This document shows positions 2,750-62,773 of a stretch of DNA of 64,000 nucleotides, piece by piece. The stretch is from positions 806,001 through 870,000 of the forward strand of contig NZ_RKSM01000001.1 in the NCBI RefSeq assembly GCF_008729015.1, given 5' to 3'. The notes beneath the pieces are model-generated. The model saw nothing but the letters and a program-made list of their open reading frames with translations. It was not told the DNA's origin and did not search any database. The stretch is from Haloarcula sp. CBA1129. GTDB taxonomy: Archaea; Halobacteriota; Halobacteria; Halobacteriales; Haloarculaceae. The stretch's first letter is position 1. Every line of letters starts with the position of its first letter. The translations under genes and the position numbers were made by a program.

Positions 2750-4036
2750 ATGTCCAATAGTTCTCGGTCTGACGGCGGGGATCCGTCCAAGGGAGGTGAT
2801 GATCGGGAGGTTCTCTTGTCGATGTATGATCAGCACCGGCAGGAGATCCGGGCTCACGGGAAGCGGAAGAGCCGTCGATATCTGGGTTCGCTTACGGCGC
2901 TTGGTGTCATCGTCGGATATGTCTTCACGACCAACGGTGATGCACGGGTCTTAGTTTTAGTGCCGTATGTGCTCGGGTTTCTCTACTTGTCTCACATTTC
3001 GTCGATGCATTACGTGACTCAGTTGGCTGCGCTTCTGGCCTTGATCGAGGCGAAGCTGGATCATCTTGGTGCAGAGTATGAGCTATTCCACGGCGGGTTC
3101 AGTATCCGTCAGAATCCACGGTTCCAGAATGTTGAAGCTAAGTATCTCAAGGAGTTCAAGCACGCTAAGAAAGATTCGGATCTGCAAGGTCTGCATCGAG
3201 TTATACAGCTTTGTGTTCGTTATTCGATGAGGGGTATTGCTCTTACAGCATATATTGTCCCGATGGCGGCTGGTACGTGGGCTGTCTATCGTGAGGGGGC
3301 ACCAGACGATTGGACTGGTCTCTTGTCGATGTTCCCGGGTCCCTCTTGGATAGGTCCAGATTTGGTAGGTCCAGCTTTGATACTTGGAACACAGATCGTT
3401 CTGCTCGTTGTAATTGGGGCAGCCTGGTTGCAGTATAGAAATCACAAGGACCTACTTAAGTCAGGGGTTCTGGAATCAGTACTGGAGGATGACTTGGAGT
3501 CGAGGATTGGGGAGATAGAGGATTTAGATATGTATTCGGTATGGCTTGTTCCTGACCGCGGCTCGGAGGCGTATCAGCAGTTAGAAGAGACTGTCGAGGA
3601 GTACGCTCAGCTGGACGAGGATGCACCTGAGTTTGAACCGCATATCACCGTAGTAGGCGGGATTCAAGCCAGTGAATCAGTGCTAGAGGAGGGTGTCCAG
3701 AGTCTTGCTGAGGGACAGGGCGTCTTCGATGTCGAGTTTACGCGGGTTCAGTGTTCGACGACGAAGCACCAGTGCGTGTTTTTGCTGGTTGAGCCTACAG
3801 CGGAGGTTCTCTCTTTGCACCAGGAGGCGGTAGAGGTGTTTGATGTGGATGGTGGGATGTATGTCCCGCATCTCAGTCTCATCTACAGCGATATGGATGT
3901 AGAGGAGCGGTTAGATTTGGCCGAGTCAATCGATATGTCGGCCTTTCCGAGTACCGTTCAAGTCGGCGAGCTTGTACTCGTCAAGACGACAGGGCCTGTC
4001 TCTGAGTGGGTGACTGTTGCGAGATATAATCTGTAG
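2750..4036 (+). CDS. Membrane-anchored 2H cyclic phosphodiesterase (CPDase-like)
   Basis: 428 residues from ATG 2750; an upstream TTG at 2723 is less likely. The N-terminal half has four hydrophobic spans, roughly residues 43-61, 67-82, 159-179 and 205-227. From about residue 260 comes a 2H phosphoesterase domain: YSVWLVPDRGSEAY, then FEPHITVVGG (first HxT, H298/T300) and YVPHLSLIYSD (second HxS, H374/S376). The spacing and the FEPHxTVVG signature match the cyclic phosphodiesterase family that opens 1'',2''- or 2',3'-cyclic phosphates. Fusion to a membrane domain is unusual. The catalytic part should face the cytoplasm, but topology is inferred. Substrate unknown: RNA ends or a cyclic nucleotide signal are both possible. 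Confidence 0.8.
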   Translation: MSNSSRSDGGDPSKGGDDREVLLSMYDQHRQEIRAHGKRKSRRYLGSLTALGVIVGYVFTTNGDARVLVLVPYVLGFLYLSHISSMHYVTQLAALLALIEAKLDHLGAEYELFHGGFSIRQNPRFQNVEAKYLKEFKHAKKDSDLQGLHRVIQLCVRYSMRGIALTAYIVPMAAGTWAVYREGAPDDWTGLLSMFPGPSWIGPDLVGPALILGTQIVLLVVIGAAWLQYRNHKDLLKSGVLESVLEDDLESRIGEIEDLDMYSVWLVPDRGSEAYQQLEETVEEYAQLDEDAPEFEPHITVVGGIQASESVLEEGVQSLAEGQGVFDVEFTRVQCSTTKHQCVFLLVEPTAEVLSLHQEAVEVFDVDGGMYVPHLSLIYSDMDVEERLDLAESIDMSAFPSTVQVGELVLVKTTGPVSEWVTVARYNL

Positions 4037-8772: not shown

Positions 8773-8807
8773 ACTACATATCTAAGTTAGTTTCCGCATG
8801 GAAAGGA

Positions 8808-8814
8808 TTTATGG
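8808..8814 (+). promoter_or_regulatory. TATA-like box for the 8924-9468 unit
   Basis: TTTATGG preceded by an A/G-rich BRE-like stretch (GAAAGGA). It lies about 27-30 bp before 8841, so transcription would begin at or just before the first base of the structured leader. Confidence 0.5.
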
Positions 8815-8840
8815 TGGTGGCGTAACATAAGCTAAGTACA

Positions 8841-8911
8841 GGAACACACGCGCCGCTGGTCGATTTCTTACGAAATCGCCCCGGTGGTAGGACACCGAGG
8901 CGCGTGGTTCC
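8841..8911 (+). ncRNA. Structured leader RNA, predicted three-way junction
   Basis: The outer stem pairs GGAACACACGCGCC (8841-8854) with GGCGCGTGGTTCC (8899-8911), with one bulged base. Inside are two hairpins: CGATTTC-TTAC-GAAATCG (8861-8878) and CGGTG-GTAGGA-CACCG (8882-8897). It ends 12 nt before the ATG of the 8924 gene and starts where the TATA box predicts the transcript start. Most haloarchaeal mRNAs are leaderless or have short leaders, so a folded 71-nt leader is unusual. It could be a cis-regulatory RNA or a processed small RNA. Confidence 0.65.
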
Positions 8912-8923
8912 AGGAAAGAACCA

Positions 8924-9220
8924 ATGGCAACTACGCAATCCAATCCACAAGAACGTACCGCCCGCGAACTACTCACCCAGGGTCGACCGCTGTTTCTCGG
9001 CGTCGACGGCGACGGCGCAGCCCACTACTGGGACAGCTACGAGTTCGCCGTGGCTGTTGTCACGGCTGATGGCGACGCCGAGACAGTCGAGCTGGCGGCG
9101 ACGCCGTTCGAGACGCTCGGACAGTGGTGCGAGTATACGCGTTCCGAGCGCGGCTGGGACATCGGCCCGCACGTCGGTGGCTCGCTGGTCGGTGATCTTG
9201 TTCGGGCGGTGGAAGCATGA
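8924..9220 (+). CDS. Small haloarchaeal hypothetical protein behind a structured leader
   Basis: 98 residues, ATG 8924. Begins MATTQSNPQERTARELL, followed by a beta-rich segment (FLGVDGDGAAHYWDSYEFAVAVV) and an acidic C-terminus (VGDLVRAVEA). No metal site or membrane span. It overlaps the next gene by four bases (ATGA), so the two are translated together. Family not recognised; related short proteins are thought to be common on haloarchaeal plasmids, though this was not checked. Expression may depend on the folded leader 12 nt upstream. Confidence 0.7.
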   Translation: MATTQSNPQERTARELLTQGRPLFLGVDGDGAAHYWDSYEFAVAVVTADGDAETVELAATPFETLGQWCEYTRSERGWDIGPHVGGSLVGDLVRAVEA

Positions 9221-9468
9221 GCTGTACTGTGGAAGAACGCAAGCGAGTGTGGCGGGCAGCGCGGGCCATTCGTGAGGAAGTGGCTACTGAGTCGGTGGAC
9301 GTGCTTGCGCCGAGTGCTAGTCAGTACGGTGAATGGACGCTCGACGCGGTGCTTCGGGATGCTGATGGGGTTCCGCCGGAGGTTCTTCGGGAGCTGGCGC
9401 TCGCTGGATTGACGTTGCAGCCGACGCCGTCGCAGGCTGAGTATCAGCACGTCGCGGCGACAGTATAG
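9217..9468 (+). CDS. Small haloarchaeal hypothetical protein
   Basis: 83 residues, ATG 9217 overlapping the previous stop (ATGA). Starts with a basic helix (SCTVEERKRVWRAARAIREEV), then a mixed region and a C-terminal AEYQHVAATV. No recognised domain. The four-base overlap indicates co-translation and possibly a physical partnership with the 98-residue protein. Confidence 0.65.
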   Translation: MSCTVEERKRVWRAARAIREEVATESVDVLAPSASQYGEWTLDAVLRDADGVPPEVLRELALAGLTLQPTPSQAEYQHVAATV

Positions 9469-9520: not shown

Positions 9521-10120
9521 TCAAAATATGGTGTTGCTGAGAACAGAATCCAGCTCCCCGCACTGTGCATACTCTCTAATTATGCTAAATTTTTGTTCCT
9601 TGGTATCATGAATTCCCTTATCTATTCCCGCGGCCTCTTCCATCTTGTCTCTGAATGCTGATATTATAACTTCACCCCGTTTTCTCCCGCCCACTTCTAT
9701 ACGGCAGCGATATCCCACCATTTCTGTAGTCGCCACCAGTTCACATTCGGTTAGAGTGTTAGTTTCATTAGTGAAATTGGTCTTTTTATTTACTTCATCA
9801 AGCCACTCATCAATAGTGCAGTGATCCAAATCAATAAGTAAATTTATACTAAAACTTTTCTCAAGAAACCCATGTATCTCGTTGCTGTATACATCTTTGA
9901 GTATTTCTCTTCCGTTTTCAGACTTAATGAGTATCTCACAGGGATAGTATGAATTCCCAAACGATTGAATCATATCTGATTCTTTTCCCCTCTTGTCCTG
10001 ACCTTCAATATCTTCAACCGAAAATGTCTCCAATTCAAAATCTAAGTTTCTGTGTTTTATATACTCATTCAGAAGTCGCAAATCCCACTTTCCTTCGCAG
10101 AGGATTAACTTCTTGCTCAT
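9521..10120 (-). CDS. Stand-alone TOPRIM-like nuclease subunit
   Basis: 199 residues, start ATG 10118-10120, overlapping the ATPase gene by four bases. The N-terminus KKLILCEGKWDLRLLNEYI fits the first TOPRIM motif (Glu in CEGK followed by Asp), and LLIDLDHC about 95 residues on fits the DxD motif. TOPRIM partners of this kind (DUF3226/DUF4435 type) act with ABC ATPases in OLD- and PARIS-like defence. It is shorter than typical AriB. The gene is AT-rich with Lys-rich codon use unlike its neighbours, suggesting recent transfer. Nuclease activity is inferred. Confidence 0.65.
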   Translation of the reverse strand: MSKKLILCEGKWDLRLLNEYIKHRNLDFELETFSVEDIEGQDKRGKESDMIQSFGNSYYPCEILIKSENGREILKDVYSNEIHGFLEKSFSINLLIDLDHCTIDEWLDEVNKKTNFTNETNTLTECELVATTEMVGYRCRIEVGGRKRGEVIISAFRDKMEEAAGIDKGIHDTKEQKFSIIREYAQCGELDSVLSNTIF

Positions 10121-11406
10121 TCTCCTCTTAAGTCAAGATGCAGTTCATTAAGATGTTTCCTCGCCTCTGCAAAATCTAGATGCTGCGCAGCATACTTTTG
10201 AATTTTCAATATGCCGAGATTCTCTTCTAGATATGATTCGGTTTCATCTAAGGTTGGATTCAAAAATGCGTTAATCAAATCTACATCATGTGTAGTTATT
10301 ATCATTTGGACACCTTCGTCTCGACTTACAGATACAAAGAAATGGACTAGTTTCTTTATATACCCAGGATGCATACTGTTTTCCGGTTCTTCAAGAAGCA
10401 AAACATACTCTTCCATTTCTGATACGTGAAGTTCCCACAGAAGCCCAGTAATCGCACGGAACCCATCTCCCATAAATTTGTGCGGAATCTGATGACGTTG
10501 GTTGTCCTGATTAAATACTACATCTTCGCTATTGAACGACTTTATTTCCGGTAGAAGGTTATATTTCCGAATAGAGTCTTCGACTCTTGAGAGGACTATG
10601 GAACTCTCCTCATGGCCCTCTATATCTTTCTCAGCAATATCGAGCTCACTTACCATTTTAACGGCAGCATTGCTTTCTAAAGTGCCTACAAAGTTTCCTG
10701 ATCCGTATCGACCTACGACCAGTCCTCTGAACAGGCTTTCCACAGCCCATTGAACTTCGTGTTCATCCACGGTAATAGAAGCGCTCGATTCAGAAATTGA
10801 ACTAGAAAACGTGTCTGCAATATCACCGATAAGATCTGAGAAGGTATCAGAAAAGTACAAAAATGGAACTTGATTTCCTGACTGTTCAACCAATATCCCG
10901 CCACTCACATATTCATCAACCTCCTCATCAGAGCGCATCTCGTCAAACACAATCTCTACTGCCCTACGTAGCAGCGATTTTAGCTCAGAACGTATATTTT
11001 GGTCCCCCTCTTCATCAACTAATCTACGCACAACTCCCCTATTCGAATTAATCTGTCTGAGGAAGAGTTGGCGAGCAACTGAGTGCTTTTGATTGTTGCT
11101 CAGTCTTTTCAGGATTAGTTCCTGCGTTGCTCCTTCGTCGATAAATTCGGTCAGTTTAGCCTGTCCAGTTGCGCCGGAATATTCGCAGCGGACAGTTGAT
11201 TCGTTGCTTCCAGACCGTATTAGATTTTCAACTAGTCCCTCATAACGCCGGACATTGTCTGGAGAAAAGCACAATTCGATGGCTTCAAGAAGCGAAGTTT
11301 TTCCTGAATTATTTTTACCCGTGACGATTGTTATATTATTTGGCTCAAAGATTAGGTTCTCGTGGGTTTTGAAATTTTGAAGATTAACCTTGCTGATTTG
11401 TACCAT
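10117..11406 (-). CDS. RecF/OLD-like ABC ATPase, partner of the TOPRIM protein
   Basis: 429 residues, start ATG 11404-11406. Motifs in order: ISKVNLQNFKTHENL (RecF-type N-terminus), Walker A GKNNSGKTS at residues 30-38, a long middle region, LLLEEPENSMHPGY (Walker B with the D-loop region), and IITTHDVDLI (H-loop). It belongs to the AAA15/AAA21 OLD-like ATPases. It is first in a two-gene unit with the TOPRIM gene, the same order as ariA-ariB of PARIS, which senses phage proteins and kills the cell. AT-rich like its partner. A split OLD or PARIS-like defence module is the best reading. Confidence 0.75.
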   Translation of the reverse strand: MVQISKVNLQNFKTHENLIFEPNNITIVTGKNNSGKTSLLEAIELCFSPDNVRRYEGLVENLIRSGSNESTVRCEYSGATGQAKLTEFIDEGATQELILKRLSNNQKHSVARQLFLRQINSNRGVVRRLVDEEGDQNIRSELKSLLRRAVEIVFDEMRSDEEVDEYVSGGILVEQSGNQVPFLYFSDTFSDLIGDIADTFSSSISESSASITVDEHEVQWAVESLFRGLVVGRYGSGNFVGTLESNAAVKMVSELDIAEKDIEGHEESSIVLSRVEDSIRKYNLLPEIKSFNSEDVVFNQDNQRHQIPHKFMGDGFRAITGLLWELHVSEMEEYVLLLEEPENSMHPGYIKKLVHFFVSVSRDEGVQMIITTHDVDLINAFLNPTLDETESYLEENLGILKIQKYAAQHLDFAEARKHLNELHLDLRGE

Positions 11407-58354: not shown

Positions 58355-61300
58355 GTTTCAGACGAACCCTCGTGGGGTTGAAGCAGTGACGGCGGGGTGG
58401 TCGAGACGCGCACTATCGCGTTTCAGACGAACCCTCGTGGGGTTGAAGCGAGTAGCGCTCGTGGATCGGGCAAGCAGGGGTGTTTCAGACGAACCCTCGT
58501 GGGGTTGAAGCTGGCGAATCGTCAAGGACGAAGACATGGCGCTGCAAGGTTTCAGACGAACCCTCGTGGGGTTGAAGCTGGCTGGATTTCGCTCGAACCG
58601 GGAGAAGAGTTCGGGTTTCAGACGAACCCTCGTGGGGTTGAAGCCTGGTTCTCGACAGCGTCGCCGGCGTCGACGACCGTTTCAGACGAACCCTCGTGGG
58701 GTTGAAGCCATCTTCGTGGCGTCCATGTCGATGGAATCCGTGTTGTTTCAGACGAACCCTCGTGGGGTTGAAGCACGTCACGCGAGAGTTGGACGATTTC
58801 GGTCGGCACCCGTTTCAGACGAACCCTCGTGGGGTTGAAGCGACGAGTCGATATCGAGCAACTCCTCGGCTTTTTCGAGTTTCAGACGAACCCTCGTGGG
58901 GTTGAAGCCTATGATAGCGAGATGTTACGACGCGAAGCGACCGAGTTTCAGACGAACCCTCGTGGGGTTGAAGCCTGCACCGAATCCAGGAAGATCCTTG
59001 CTCGTGAAGTGTTTCAGACGAACCCTCGTGGGGTTGAAGCACTGGTGACGACGGTGAAGAGGTGACGTACAACCCGGTTTCAGACGAACCCTCGTGGGGT
59101 TGAAGCGTCAGGATCGTCGACGTCAGGATGAGGCACGACTTGTTTCAGACGAACCCTCGTGGGGTTGAAGCCTGTTTATCGTTTGCATAGTGATGGTTGC
59201 GTTATACGTTTCAGACGAACCCTCGTGGGGTTGAAGCCGCATCGCCGGCACGGAACCCAACGAGAACGAAATCGTTTCAGACGAACCCTCGTGGGGTTGA
59301 AGCAACGGAGCAATCAAGGGCGTCCGCCGTCCAAATGTTTCAGACGAACCCTCGTGGGGTTGAAGCTTGACGGGAACGAACTTGACGAGTCCGCCCTGCT
59401 CGTTTCAGACGAACCCTCGTGGGGTTGAAGCATCAACAATGTCGTCGGCGTCAATTTTGAACGATGGTTTCAGACGAACCCTCGTGGGGTTGAAGCACGC
59501 GAGTAGCCAGTGACGCGCCCACCGTCTCCGCGCGTTTCAGACGAACCCTCGTGGGGTTGAAGCAGGATGCCAGAGTAACTCGCGTCTGTCGAGCCGTGTT
59601 TCAGACGAACCCTCGTGGGGTTGAAGCGCCCGTTCCGTCGCGTTTGGTCGCTCCGCATACGTTGTTTCAGACGAACCCTCGTGGGGTTGAAGCCGTAGCC
59701 CAATCCACGCCAAAGTCATTACTCATGTGTTTCAGACGAACCCTCGTGGGGTTGAAGCATTGCGGGAGTCGGCGTCGTCCCGGTCTGAATCATCGGTTTC
59801 AGACGAACCCTCGTGGGGTTGAAGCGGACACTGGACAGTCTCGACAGCCCCCTGTATCTCGCGTTTCAGACGAACCCTCGTGGGGTTGAAGCAGGGCACG
59901 CCGACGGTCAACCGGAAGGGCTACGCCGGTTTCAGACGAACCCTCGTGGGGTTGAAGCTCCCAACGCGATGTTCTTACTTTTGGATATGTTGGTTTCAGA
60001 CGAACCCTCGTGGGGTTGAAGCTAACTCGTGTGAGTTGTATAGAAAATTCCCAGCGAGTTTCAGACGAACCCTCGTGGGGTTGAAGCCCCGAACGAATCA
60101 GGGACGGGAATCTCGCTGGTAGAGTTTCAGACGAACCCTCGTGGGGTTGAAGCCTCTACCTTCGTCGCTAGCTTACTCTGTCGAGAGAGTTTCAGACGAA
60201 CCCTCGTGGGGTTGAAGCGCGCGCGCCCTCTCGCGCCGCTGGCGTCAGCTCCGTGTTTCAGACGAACCCTCGTGGGGTTGAAGCCTCTTCGAGAACCTCA
60301 GCCACTTCTACCGATAGAGTTTCAGACGAACCCTCGTGGGGTTGAAGCACTTCCTTCGGGAGTTCGTGGTGGGGCCACGCCTCGTTTCAGACGAACCCTC
60401 GTGGGGTTGAAGCCATTATGATCTGTCCGAGAAGGTCGGGGAGTCCGTGTTTCAGACGAACCCTCGTGGGGTTGAAGCCCACAGCAGGCACAGGTTTCGA
60501 CGTTCGTCATAGAAGTTTCAGACGAACCCTCGTGGGGTTGAAGCACGCATCTTCAGCTGACGAACTCGGCTCCGCAGTCTGGTTTCAGACGAACCCTCGT
60601 GGGGTTGAAGCGGCCCGCGTGGGAAGGGCGACATCCTGAAGTACCTGTTTCAGACGAACCCTCGTGGGGTTGAAGCCAGCGTCGACTCATCTGTCGGGAT
60701 ATGTGGGTTCTCGGTTTCAGACGAACCCTCGTGGGGTTGAAGCAGGAATCAGGTCGCCGGGCTCAGGGAGTGAGGCGTTTCAGACGAACCCTCGTGGGGT
60801 TGAAGCAGGAATCAGGTCGCCGGGCTCAGGGAGTGAGGCGTTTCAGACGAACCCTCGTGGGGTTGAAGCCGCTTTAGCTGATTCGCCGCGTCGGTCGCGC
60901 CGGTTTCAGACGAACCCTCGTGGGGTTGAAGCGCTTCCTTAACGGCTTCGTGGACCATCTCGGCCACGGTTTCAGACGAACCCTCGTGGGGTTGAAGCTG
61001 GGCATTGACCCCGGGGTTTTGGTCGTCAATCCGGTTTCAGACGAACCCTCGTGGGGTTGAAGCGCTGATACTCCGGCCGCTGTCACTGGATGCCATCGGT
61101 TTCAGACGAACCCTCGTGGGGTTGAAGCCGCAATCGGGCCGTCCCTCGCGTGGATCGGGCCGGACGTTTCAGACGAACCCTCGTGGGGTTGAAGCGTGCC
61201 GCCGTCGTCGTCGGCTACCTGAATGTCCATCGTTTCAGACGAACCCTCGTGGGGTTGAAGCGGTGAGGTAGTCCACTCCGTCGAACAACTCGCCGCGTTT

Positions 61301-62773
61301 CAGACGAACCCTCGTGGGGTTGAAGCCACTGCCCACGCCCGCCGAGTTGTTCGACCCGAATAGTTTCAGACGAACCCTCGTGGGGTTGAAGCCATCCACT
61401 CCAGATTGTACTGTTGCACGTCCTCGGCAGTTTCAGACGAACCCTCGTGGGGTTGAAGCGACGACAACGCACAGCTTCGATTCGACAAACTACTCGTTTC
61501 AGACGAACCCTCGTGGGGTTGAAGCGCTGTATCGAGATAAGGGAGCGGACTTTCTCGAGTTTCAGACGAACCCTCGTGGGGTTGAAGCCAGTTCGTCGAT
61601 AACCGAGAGATCAGATAGGTCCACGTTTCAGACGAACCCTCGTGGGGTTGAAGCTCCGTCAATATCGTAGACGAAAGTGGTTGAGGTGGTTTCAGACGAA
61701 CCCTCGTGGGGTTGAAGCAGGTTCAATCCCCCCGCCCCGTGTATAGGTCATACGGGTTTCAGACGAACCCTCGTGGGGTTGAAGCATCGGCGCAGCCGTG
61801 CTGTTCGCCTACTACCAGCCGTTTCAGACGAACCCTCGTGGGGTTGAAGCGCCGGCCTGCTCGGTCAGCGACGAGATCACCACGGGTTTCAGACGAACCC
61901 TCGTGGGGTTGAAGCGCAGATCAGGTGATCGCGCACGCTGATCTGTCGAAGGTTTCAGACGAACCCTCGTGGGGTTGAAGCGAGTCCGTCGACGCGCTCC
62001 GGCGGGCCGATCAGGACGTTTCAGACGAACCCTCGTGGGGTTGAAGCCCCGCCCGTACAGCAGACCACAGATTTTCCCTGCCGGGGTTTCAGACGAACCC
62101 TCGTGGGGTTGAAGCTCCCCACGTAGCGGAGCCGTGAAGGTTGATTTCGCGTTTCAGACGAACCCTCGTGGGGTTGAAGCGAACAGTATTTCGACCGCGT
62201 CTGATGTTGTTGATGGTTTCAGACGAACCCTCGTGGGGTTGAAGCGGCTGCCGTCGACGGCGTCGCGGTAGGTGAGCGACCGTTTCAGACGAACCCTCGT
62301 GGGGTTGAAGCGGACGACGGGAAAAAGGACCCGACAGTCACCCTCGTTTCAGACGAACCCTCGTGGGGTTGAAGCGCCCAGTACAGTGAGACGTGCCCCG
62401 GCGTATACTCGCGTTTCAGACGAACCCTCGTGGGGTTGAAGCATACCTCATACTACGCCGCCATAACCTTTGAACCTCGTTTCAGACGAACCCTCGTGGG
62501 GTTGAAGCACGCGCTTTCGAGAGCGGCTCGCGGACAGATCGGACGTTTCAGACGAACCCTCGTGGGGTTGAAGCACCATGACGTTCACCTTCGAGGCCGC
62601 CGACGGCAGTAGTTTCAGACGAACCCTCGTGGGGTTGAAGCCAACTGCTGGATTTGGTACTGTCGTACAGAGTCCTCGTTTCAGACGAACCCTCGTGGGG
62701 TTGAAGAGCCCATACTGCTTTGAGTTTCGCGGCTATCTGAGTGGTTTCAGACGAATCCTCTACATCCCAAATC
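58355..62773 (+). CRISPR. Type I-B CRISPR array, 67 repeats plus a degenerate terminal one
   Basis: The 30-bp repeat is GTTTCAGACGAACCC followed by TCGTGGGGTTGAAGC, seemingly invariant in all but the last copies; spacers are mostly 33-37 bp (one is 32). Starts counted by eye run from 58355 to 62678. The repeat at 62678 has A instead of the final C, and the terminal one at 62744-62773 keeps only its first half, marking the leader-distal old end. One spacer occurs twice in a row (60744-60776 and 60807-60839). The repeat belongs to the Haloferax/Haloarcula type. Open frames within the array are artefacts. Confidence 0.98.

Follow-up and report, generated by a model that had tools for sequence, protein, structure and literature searches.

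Bacterial translational riboswitches and bistable 5′ leaders work through competition between the closing stem of a junction and a hairpin at the translation start. The haloarchaeal leader family described here has this competition of closing stem and start-site hairpin in common with them. In contrast to the bacterial leaders, it has no visible Shine-Dalgarno sequence to mask, no known ligand and no visible invariant pocket, and it precedes many unrelated small genes within one order in the sampled genomes. The principle of a stem opposed by a start-site hairpin is already known; new, as far as tested, are the family itself, the range of its hosts and the form without a Shine-Dalgarno sequence.

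One account considers control via structured leaders untypical of haloarchaea (PMC4983044), and a 2021 paper called the fluoride riboswitch the sole experimentally determined natural archaeal riboswitch (PMC8241225). The fluoride (crcB) riboswitch of Thermococcus kodakarensis is likewise an archaeal cis-regulatory leader, but the genes are different and the haloarchaeal leader has no Rfam match. The S15 ribosomal-protein leader of Halobacteria (Eckert and Weinberg 2020, PMC7247131) is likewise a structured haloarchaeal leader found from covariation; according to that report it precedes rpsO, whereas none of the translated genes downstream of the new family was recognised as a ribosomal-protein gene. 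Another related system is a synthetic theophylline riboswitch of Haloferax volcanii, reported to control translation by structure in the start region. That riboswitch was engineered and is described as masking the Shine-Dalgarno sequence and AUG directly (PMC8241225), while the haloarchaeal hairpin, here called P4, adjoins the AUG.

We analysed 64,000 nucleotides of a contig of Haloarcula sp. CBA1129 (the window; coordinates refer to this whole stretch). The leader and the two genes behind it comprise the following features.

8841..8911, + strand: three-way-junction leader RNA of P1, P2 and P3 (fold z -5.3, covariation, model matches)
8841..8854, + strand: P1, 5′ strand (fold; A8846 bulged)
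8858..8880, + strand: P2 hairpin (8858-8859 and 8861-8867 with 8872-8880)
8882..8897, + strand: P3 hairpin (8882-8886 with 8893-8897)
8899..8911, + strand: P1, 3′ strand (fold; 8905-8910 doubles as the 5′ strand of P4)
8924..9220, + strand: first gene, 98-aa protein, presumed controlled gene (start ATG 8924)
9217..9468, + strand: second gene, 83-aa protein (overlaps the first gene by 4 nt)

The original prediction of a folded 71-nt segment with an outer stem of about 13 bp, two internal hairpins and 12 nt to the start codon was recovered by folding. The segment corresponds to 8841-8911, P1 consists of 13 bp with one bulge (8841-8845 with 8907-8911 and 8847-8854 with 8899-8906), and positions 8912-8923 separate the leader from the ATG. 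Its minimum free energy is -42.5 kcal/mol, whereas dinucleotide shuffles average -24.9 (z -5.3) and none of 200 folded as well, the longer stretch 8808-8960 being less extreme (z -2.9). Rfam 15, searched with gathering and permissive thresholds, gave no family for the leader: the matches in 8780-8960 lie far under the gathering scores, and the only matches above the gathering threshold in the window are CRISPR repeats away from the leader. A search for tRNA and tmRNA found none.

The start of the transcript was predicted from the promoter.

8800..8813, + strand: predicted BRE/TATA promoter element, GGAAAGGA TTTATG (sequence; positional enrichment over 76 leaders)
8829..8830, + strand: predicted WW (-10) element (TA enrichment over 76 leaders; PMC3986360)
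8840..8841, + strand: predicted transcription start, identical with or one base before the start of P1 (promoter spacing)

When 76 leaders were aligned on their own 5′ ends alone, AAA at -34..-32, TTTA at -29..-26 and TA at -10/-9 were enriched. For leaderless starts of Haloferax volcanii, BRE has been reported at -34/-33, TATA at -29 to -25 and WW at about -10 (PMC3986360). As the spacing of the leader promoters fits these positions, the start is predicted at 8840-8841. The earlier claim that transcription starts at the 5′ end of the leader is in this way supported indirectly, and the sequence indicates no downstream start. At the promoters of one downstream gene, encoding a zinc-ribbon-like protein, we also noticed inverted repeats (L182-L198; e.g. 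TTAGTC..GACTAA in L182) about 55-100 nt upstream of the end of the leader, which are a possible operator.

To characterise the distribution of the leader we used two covariance models, R1, built from 41 leaders (alignment A3, MAFFT), and R2, built from 50 diverse leaders (alignment A5); the E-values of both are rough. R1 matched 46 of 392 Halobacteriales genomes at E ≤ 1e-3, and R2 at E ≤ 1e-4 matched 151 of the 392, which represent 53 of 95 genera. In a sample of 294 genomes of the phylum, whose share outside the order is unspecified, 14 had matches and all of them were Halobacteriales. The leader is one member of an RNA family that the models match across Halobacteriales. The family is apparently undescribed; we found no description of it in the open-access literature, including passages of PMC2864571 and PMC7247131. 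A covarying two-state leader in more than one third of the sampled genomes would change the prevailing picture of haloarchaeal regulation. One R1 match, L132 (E 9e-4), is a probable false positive as it lacks the promoter and gene pattern and its genome has no R2 match; it was excluded from the P4, promoter and coding-region counts and retained in the G.U/A.C count, and L020 was excluded because no start codon was found. Viral carriage of the leader found no support: a P3 pattern occurs in four viral contigs but the model matches there are weak and partial. Some leaders form divergent pairs about 500-600 nt apart (L079, 91-190 on the minus and 683-780 on the plus strand; L142, 3063-3163 minus and 3665-3764 plus; L134, 700-802 minus and 1421-1521 plus, where the minus copy is weak).

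Compensatory change in homologues had been set beforehand as the test of the fold, and it was present in both alignments. In A3, 8 of 27 pairs changed on both sides and 92.2 % of cells were paired. In A5, which was fitted to the structure and is biased in its favour, the numbers were 26 of 27 pairs and 93.0 %, with 190 compensatory cells and a covariation score of 0.492 against 0.161 (sd 0.009) for shuffled and at most 0.080 for slid alignments. The fold also arises without the alignments: seven members folded without one again gave an outer stem and two hairpins (z -2.0 to -6.0), and energy alone produced a two-branch junction in 45 of 46 non-redundant leaders, the exception being L120.

The covarying structure could also be a property of the DNA, serving as a hairpin recombination site or a protein-binding site with no function in RNA. 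Conservation of the leader and N-terminal codons in front of differing downstream genes is what module shuffling would give. However, in folds restricted to Watson-Crick pairs, single interruptions were 17 G.U against 3 A.C in 47 non-redundant leaders, and 22 against 7 in all 80, and this excess indicates that the mRNA strand is the selected molecule. The promoter elements at a fixed distance and the position of P4 against the start codon also speak against a DNA element, which we regard as very improbable.

The original prediction had proposed either control at the RNA level or a processed small RNA, and these two parts fared differently. Control in cis is well supported by the compensatory changes, the mRNA-strand polarity, the promoter position and the placement before the start. 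The small RNA found no support, since in 60 of 61 model-found leaders (31 + 30 inspected, L132 dropped) no more than about 25 nt lie between the end of the RNA and the beginning of an ORF, and the conserved pairing extends to the start codon. A covarying structure in the 5′UTR before the start codon is what characterises a structured cis-regulatory leader, and the sequences place this RNA, in all probability, in that general class. The breadth of the family had been overlooked, as had the second pairing of the P1 3′ strand.

8918..8923, + strand: P4, 3′ strand GAACCA (pairs with 8905-8910; its last base directly precedes the ATG)

The 3′ strand of P1 in the window includes UGGUUC (8905-8910), which is complementary to 8918-8923 (GAACCA), and the representative L005 has the identical P4 sequence. 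We scored the P4 helix of leaders with their own tails and with tails permuted among leaders. For 47 representatives (<80% identity) the score was 13.77 with own tails against 11.31 (sd 0.32) with permuted ones, reached in 0 of 10000 permutations, in line with an earlier result for 46 leaders. The stricter set of 26 representatives (<70%) gave 13.35 against 11.03 (sd 0.43), again 0 of 10000. Both sets supersede a first grouping (65% identity, loose gap costs), in which only 7 representatives remained (12.1 against 9.7, 24 of 10000). The best P4 helix has a median length of 6 pairs (at least 5 in 37 of 47). In 41 of 47 leaders it ends 0-1 nt 5′ of the start codon, and in the other 6 it does not come that close; it adjoins the AUG, mostly without including it. 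For L172 (1507-1585) the script probably chose the wrong start codon, since a perfect P4 (GGTCTT/AAGACC) lies in front of the following ATG.

Along the shared strand, 241 bases pair in both P1 and P4 (C-G-C, A-U-A, G-C-G and wobbles), and because the bases are shared the two helices are mutually exclusive. The three strands covary, and divergent sequences keep both pairings, for example GCUUC/GAAGC (L118, L140), GCUGUCU/AGACAGC (L025), GGCUUUC/GAAAGCC (L116), GGUCUGU/ACAGACC (L158) and GUCUUC/GAAGAC (L164). According to predicted energies P1 is stabler in 40 of 46 leaders and P4 in 5, with one tie (median +4.5 kcal/mol); the window copy favours P1 by 7.3 kcal/mol, and its predicted P4 state retains upper P1, P2 and P3 and releases the 5′ end. 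Since P1 is predicted to be stabler in most leaders, switching would need an outside factor. An RNA thermometer does not fit, as the predicted P4-P1 difference of the window copy goes only from 8.7 to 6.3 kcal/mol between 25 and 65 C, and neither does an intrinsic terminator or antiterminator, because the start codon directly follows P4 and there is no U run.

The segment before the AUG has a sequence bias of its own (AACCC), which could explain a part of the P4 signal. If it explained all of it, P4 would be a by-product of this preference and the folded 5′ end would merely shield the mRNA from 5′-3′ decay and so raise expression. P1 does begin at the predicted 5′ end and is predicted to be very stable. 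Against such a shield, own tails fit the shared strand better than the tails of other leaders, and the sequence exceptions GCUUC/GAAGC, CUGUC/GACAG and CGUU/AACG keep the pairing, so we think this explanation unlikely.

Structure, covariation, strand, promoter spacing and exclusive pairing are supported directly, and we consider that the leader is probably a cis-acting translational switch, on with P1 and off with P4. In the proposed mechanism, transcription would start at the 5′ end of 8841-8911 and P1 would close the three-way junction, from which the hairpins P2 and P3 branch off. A closed P1 would leave the 12 nt in front of the start codon free and the gene translatable. Alternatively, the end of the P1 3′ strand would pair with the segment just before the start codon; this hairpin, P4, would open lower P1, free the 5′ end and bring a helix right up to the AUG, so that initiation should be blocked. 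The balance would be shifted by some factor, be it a protein, a ligand or an RNA. We infer the use of both states, the direction, the translational level and the existence of a trigger; for Haloferax volcanii, a synthetic riboswitch is reported to work by a structure that masks the start region (PMC8241225). The Haloarcula leader could become a tractable system for switching an archaeal ribosome without Shine-Dalgarno pairing.

The 6-nt P3 loops vary at every position, and the junctions vary too. As no strictly invariant nucleotides were seen in the loops, a protein or RNA partner of the switch is no less likely than a small molecule. In one narrower form of the translational switch, a protein encoded by the host or by the element would stabilise P1 or P4. 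The variable loops suit recognition of structure more than a metabolite pocket and the unrelated downstream genes point to a common trans-acting factor, but we identified no candidate protein that the hosts share, and we hold this form to be a serious possibility that falls somewhat short of probable. In the other narrower form, the three-way junction would be the aptamer of a riboswitch for a metabolite or an ion. Two exclusive pairings with one at the start site are what is looked for in a riboswitch, and the predicted leader has them, in the shape of a junction domain whose P1 is opposed by an anti-P1 hairpin next to the start codon. Nevertheless, we saw no invariant nucleotides of a ligand pocket, the downstream genes form no pathway and no Rfam riboswitch matched at threshold, which makes this form quite doubtful.

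The genes behind the leaders are diverse and we recognised no known pathway common to them. In the Haloarcula subgroup, the gene behind the leader belongs either to the 98-aa family or to one whose members have about 60 aa. Other leaders precede SWIM zinc-finger proteins (PF04434 above the cut-off for L107, L158 and L137 and just below it for L167), a zinc-ribbon-like protein and small C2H2-like proteins, these two recognised by eye, a TAT-signal protein (L114) or further genes. The zinc-ribbon-like gene has the leader directly upstream in 17 of 17 homologues in named haloarchaeal genomes, with hosts including Halorussus, Halogeometricum, Natronomonas, Halosimplex, Halostella, Natrinema and Halorubrum. 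On some islands three or four leader-gene units lie together (L158-L161). The plasmids pNG100, pNG200, pNG300 and pNG400 of H. marismortui have one unit adjoining leftward runs of small genes, and on pNG200 and pNG100 the same stretch also has replication genes (RepH or orc1/cdc6) at another place. Beta-CASP (RNase J/CPSF-like) ORFs, confirmed by PF10996, adjoin leader-gene clusters at L158 (7669-9294) and L159 (4960-6792), and a TFB-like ORF was noticed by eye at L158 (9281-10330). A link to the nuclease is noted without weight: two genomes of one genus (G136, G103) have additional copies close to leaders, but all 26 genomes examined have copies regardless.

The coding sequences share a short motif near their start.

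8948..8960, + strand: early coding motif CAAGAACGTACCG at +25..+37 from the ATG (position conserved across unrelated proteins)

Among 70 distinct N-termini, which are not independent, the third base of codon 9 is A/T in 68, the third base of codon 12 is C in 64 and the first base of codon 13 is G in 63. This pattern may belong to the control element or to an N-terminal module that the proteins have in common. A hairpin in the early coding region is clear by eye in a subset of leaders, but we do not extend it to the family, as the mean z over the 70 N-termini (-0.31) is no different from that of later windows (-0.27 and -0.37). The bias for GAA at codon 10 (41 of 42 Glu) was dismissed as unspecific, because Glu in codons 2-9 is nearly always GAA as well. 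Unrelated small genes, many of them zinc-finger and carried on plasmids or islands, might form an order-wide haloarchaeal regulon under one two-state leader family with a common signal and a matched element in the first 13 codons, a reading that we put forward tentatively. If true, it would mean a bipartite RNA switch spanning the start codon without a Shine-Dalgarno sequence. The control element that the genes share also gives access to a large number of small proteins that are uncharacterised.

Searches of both window genes against Pfam, NCBIfam and PADLOC gave no match; the 98-aa protein matched phrog_32485, of unknown function. Phage records gave no match, and among the viral contigs neither the 98-aa protein nor one SWIM protein had a relative. 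The original prediction spoke of homologous plasmids; the window's own unit is located on a 3.48-Mb contig and not on a small plasmid, although relatives of the two-gene unit are often carried by Haloarcula plasmids (26 records). The same genome has a second copy of 90% identity. Among 60 relatives, 23 have DNA-level matches and 23 have the 98-aa protein, throughout in Haloarcula.

In Haloarcula genomes (e.g. G000:C1:937-957 kb, with L143 and L144) many partial copies of the 98-aa gene lie near full copies. They lack the first 9-12 codons, some contain a stop codon, and they look like silent cassettes beside one leader-bearing copy. Directly 3′ of the two-gene unit, the window encodes an OLD-like TOPRIM protein and an AAA ATPase (9521-11406, minus strand), a pair that resembles two-gene defence systems (PDC-M38A/B-like). 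A CRISPR array of 67 repeats, called CRISPR-DR24 by Rfam, lies at 58355-62707.
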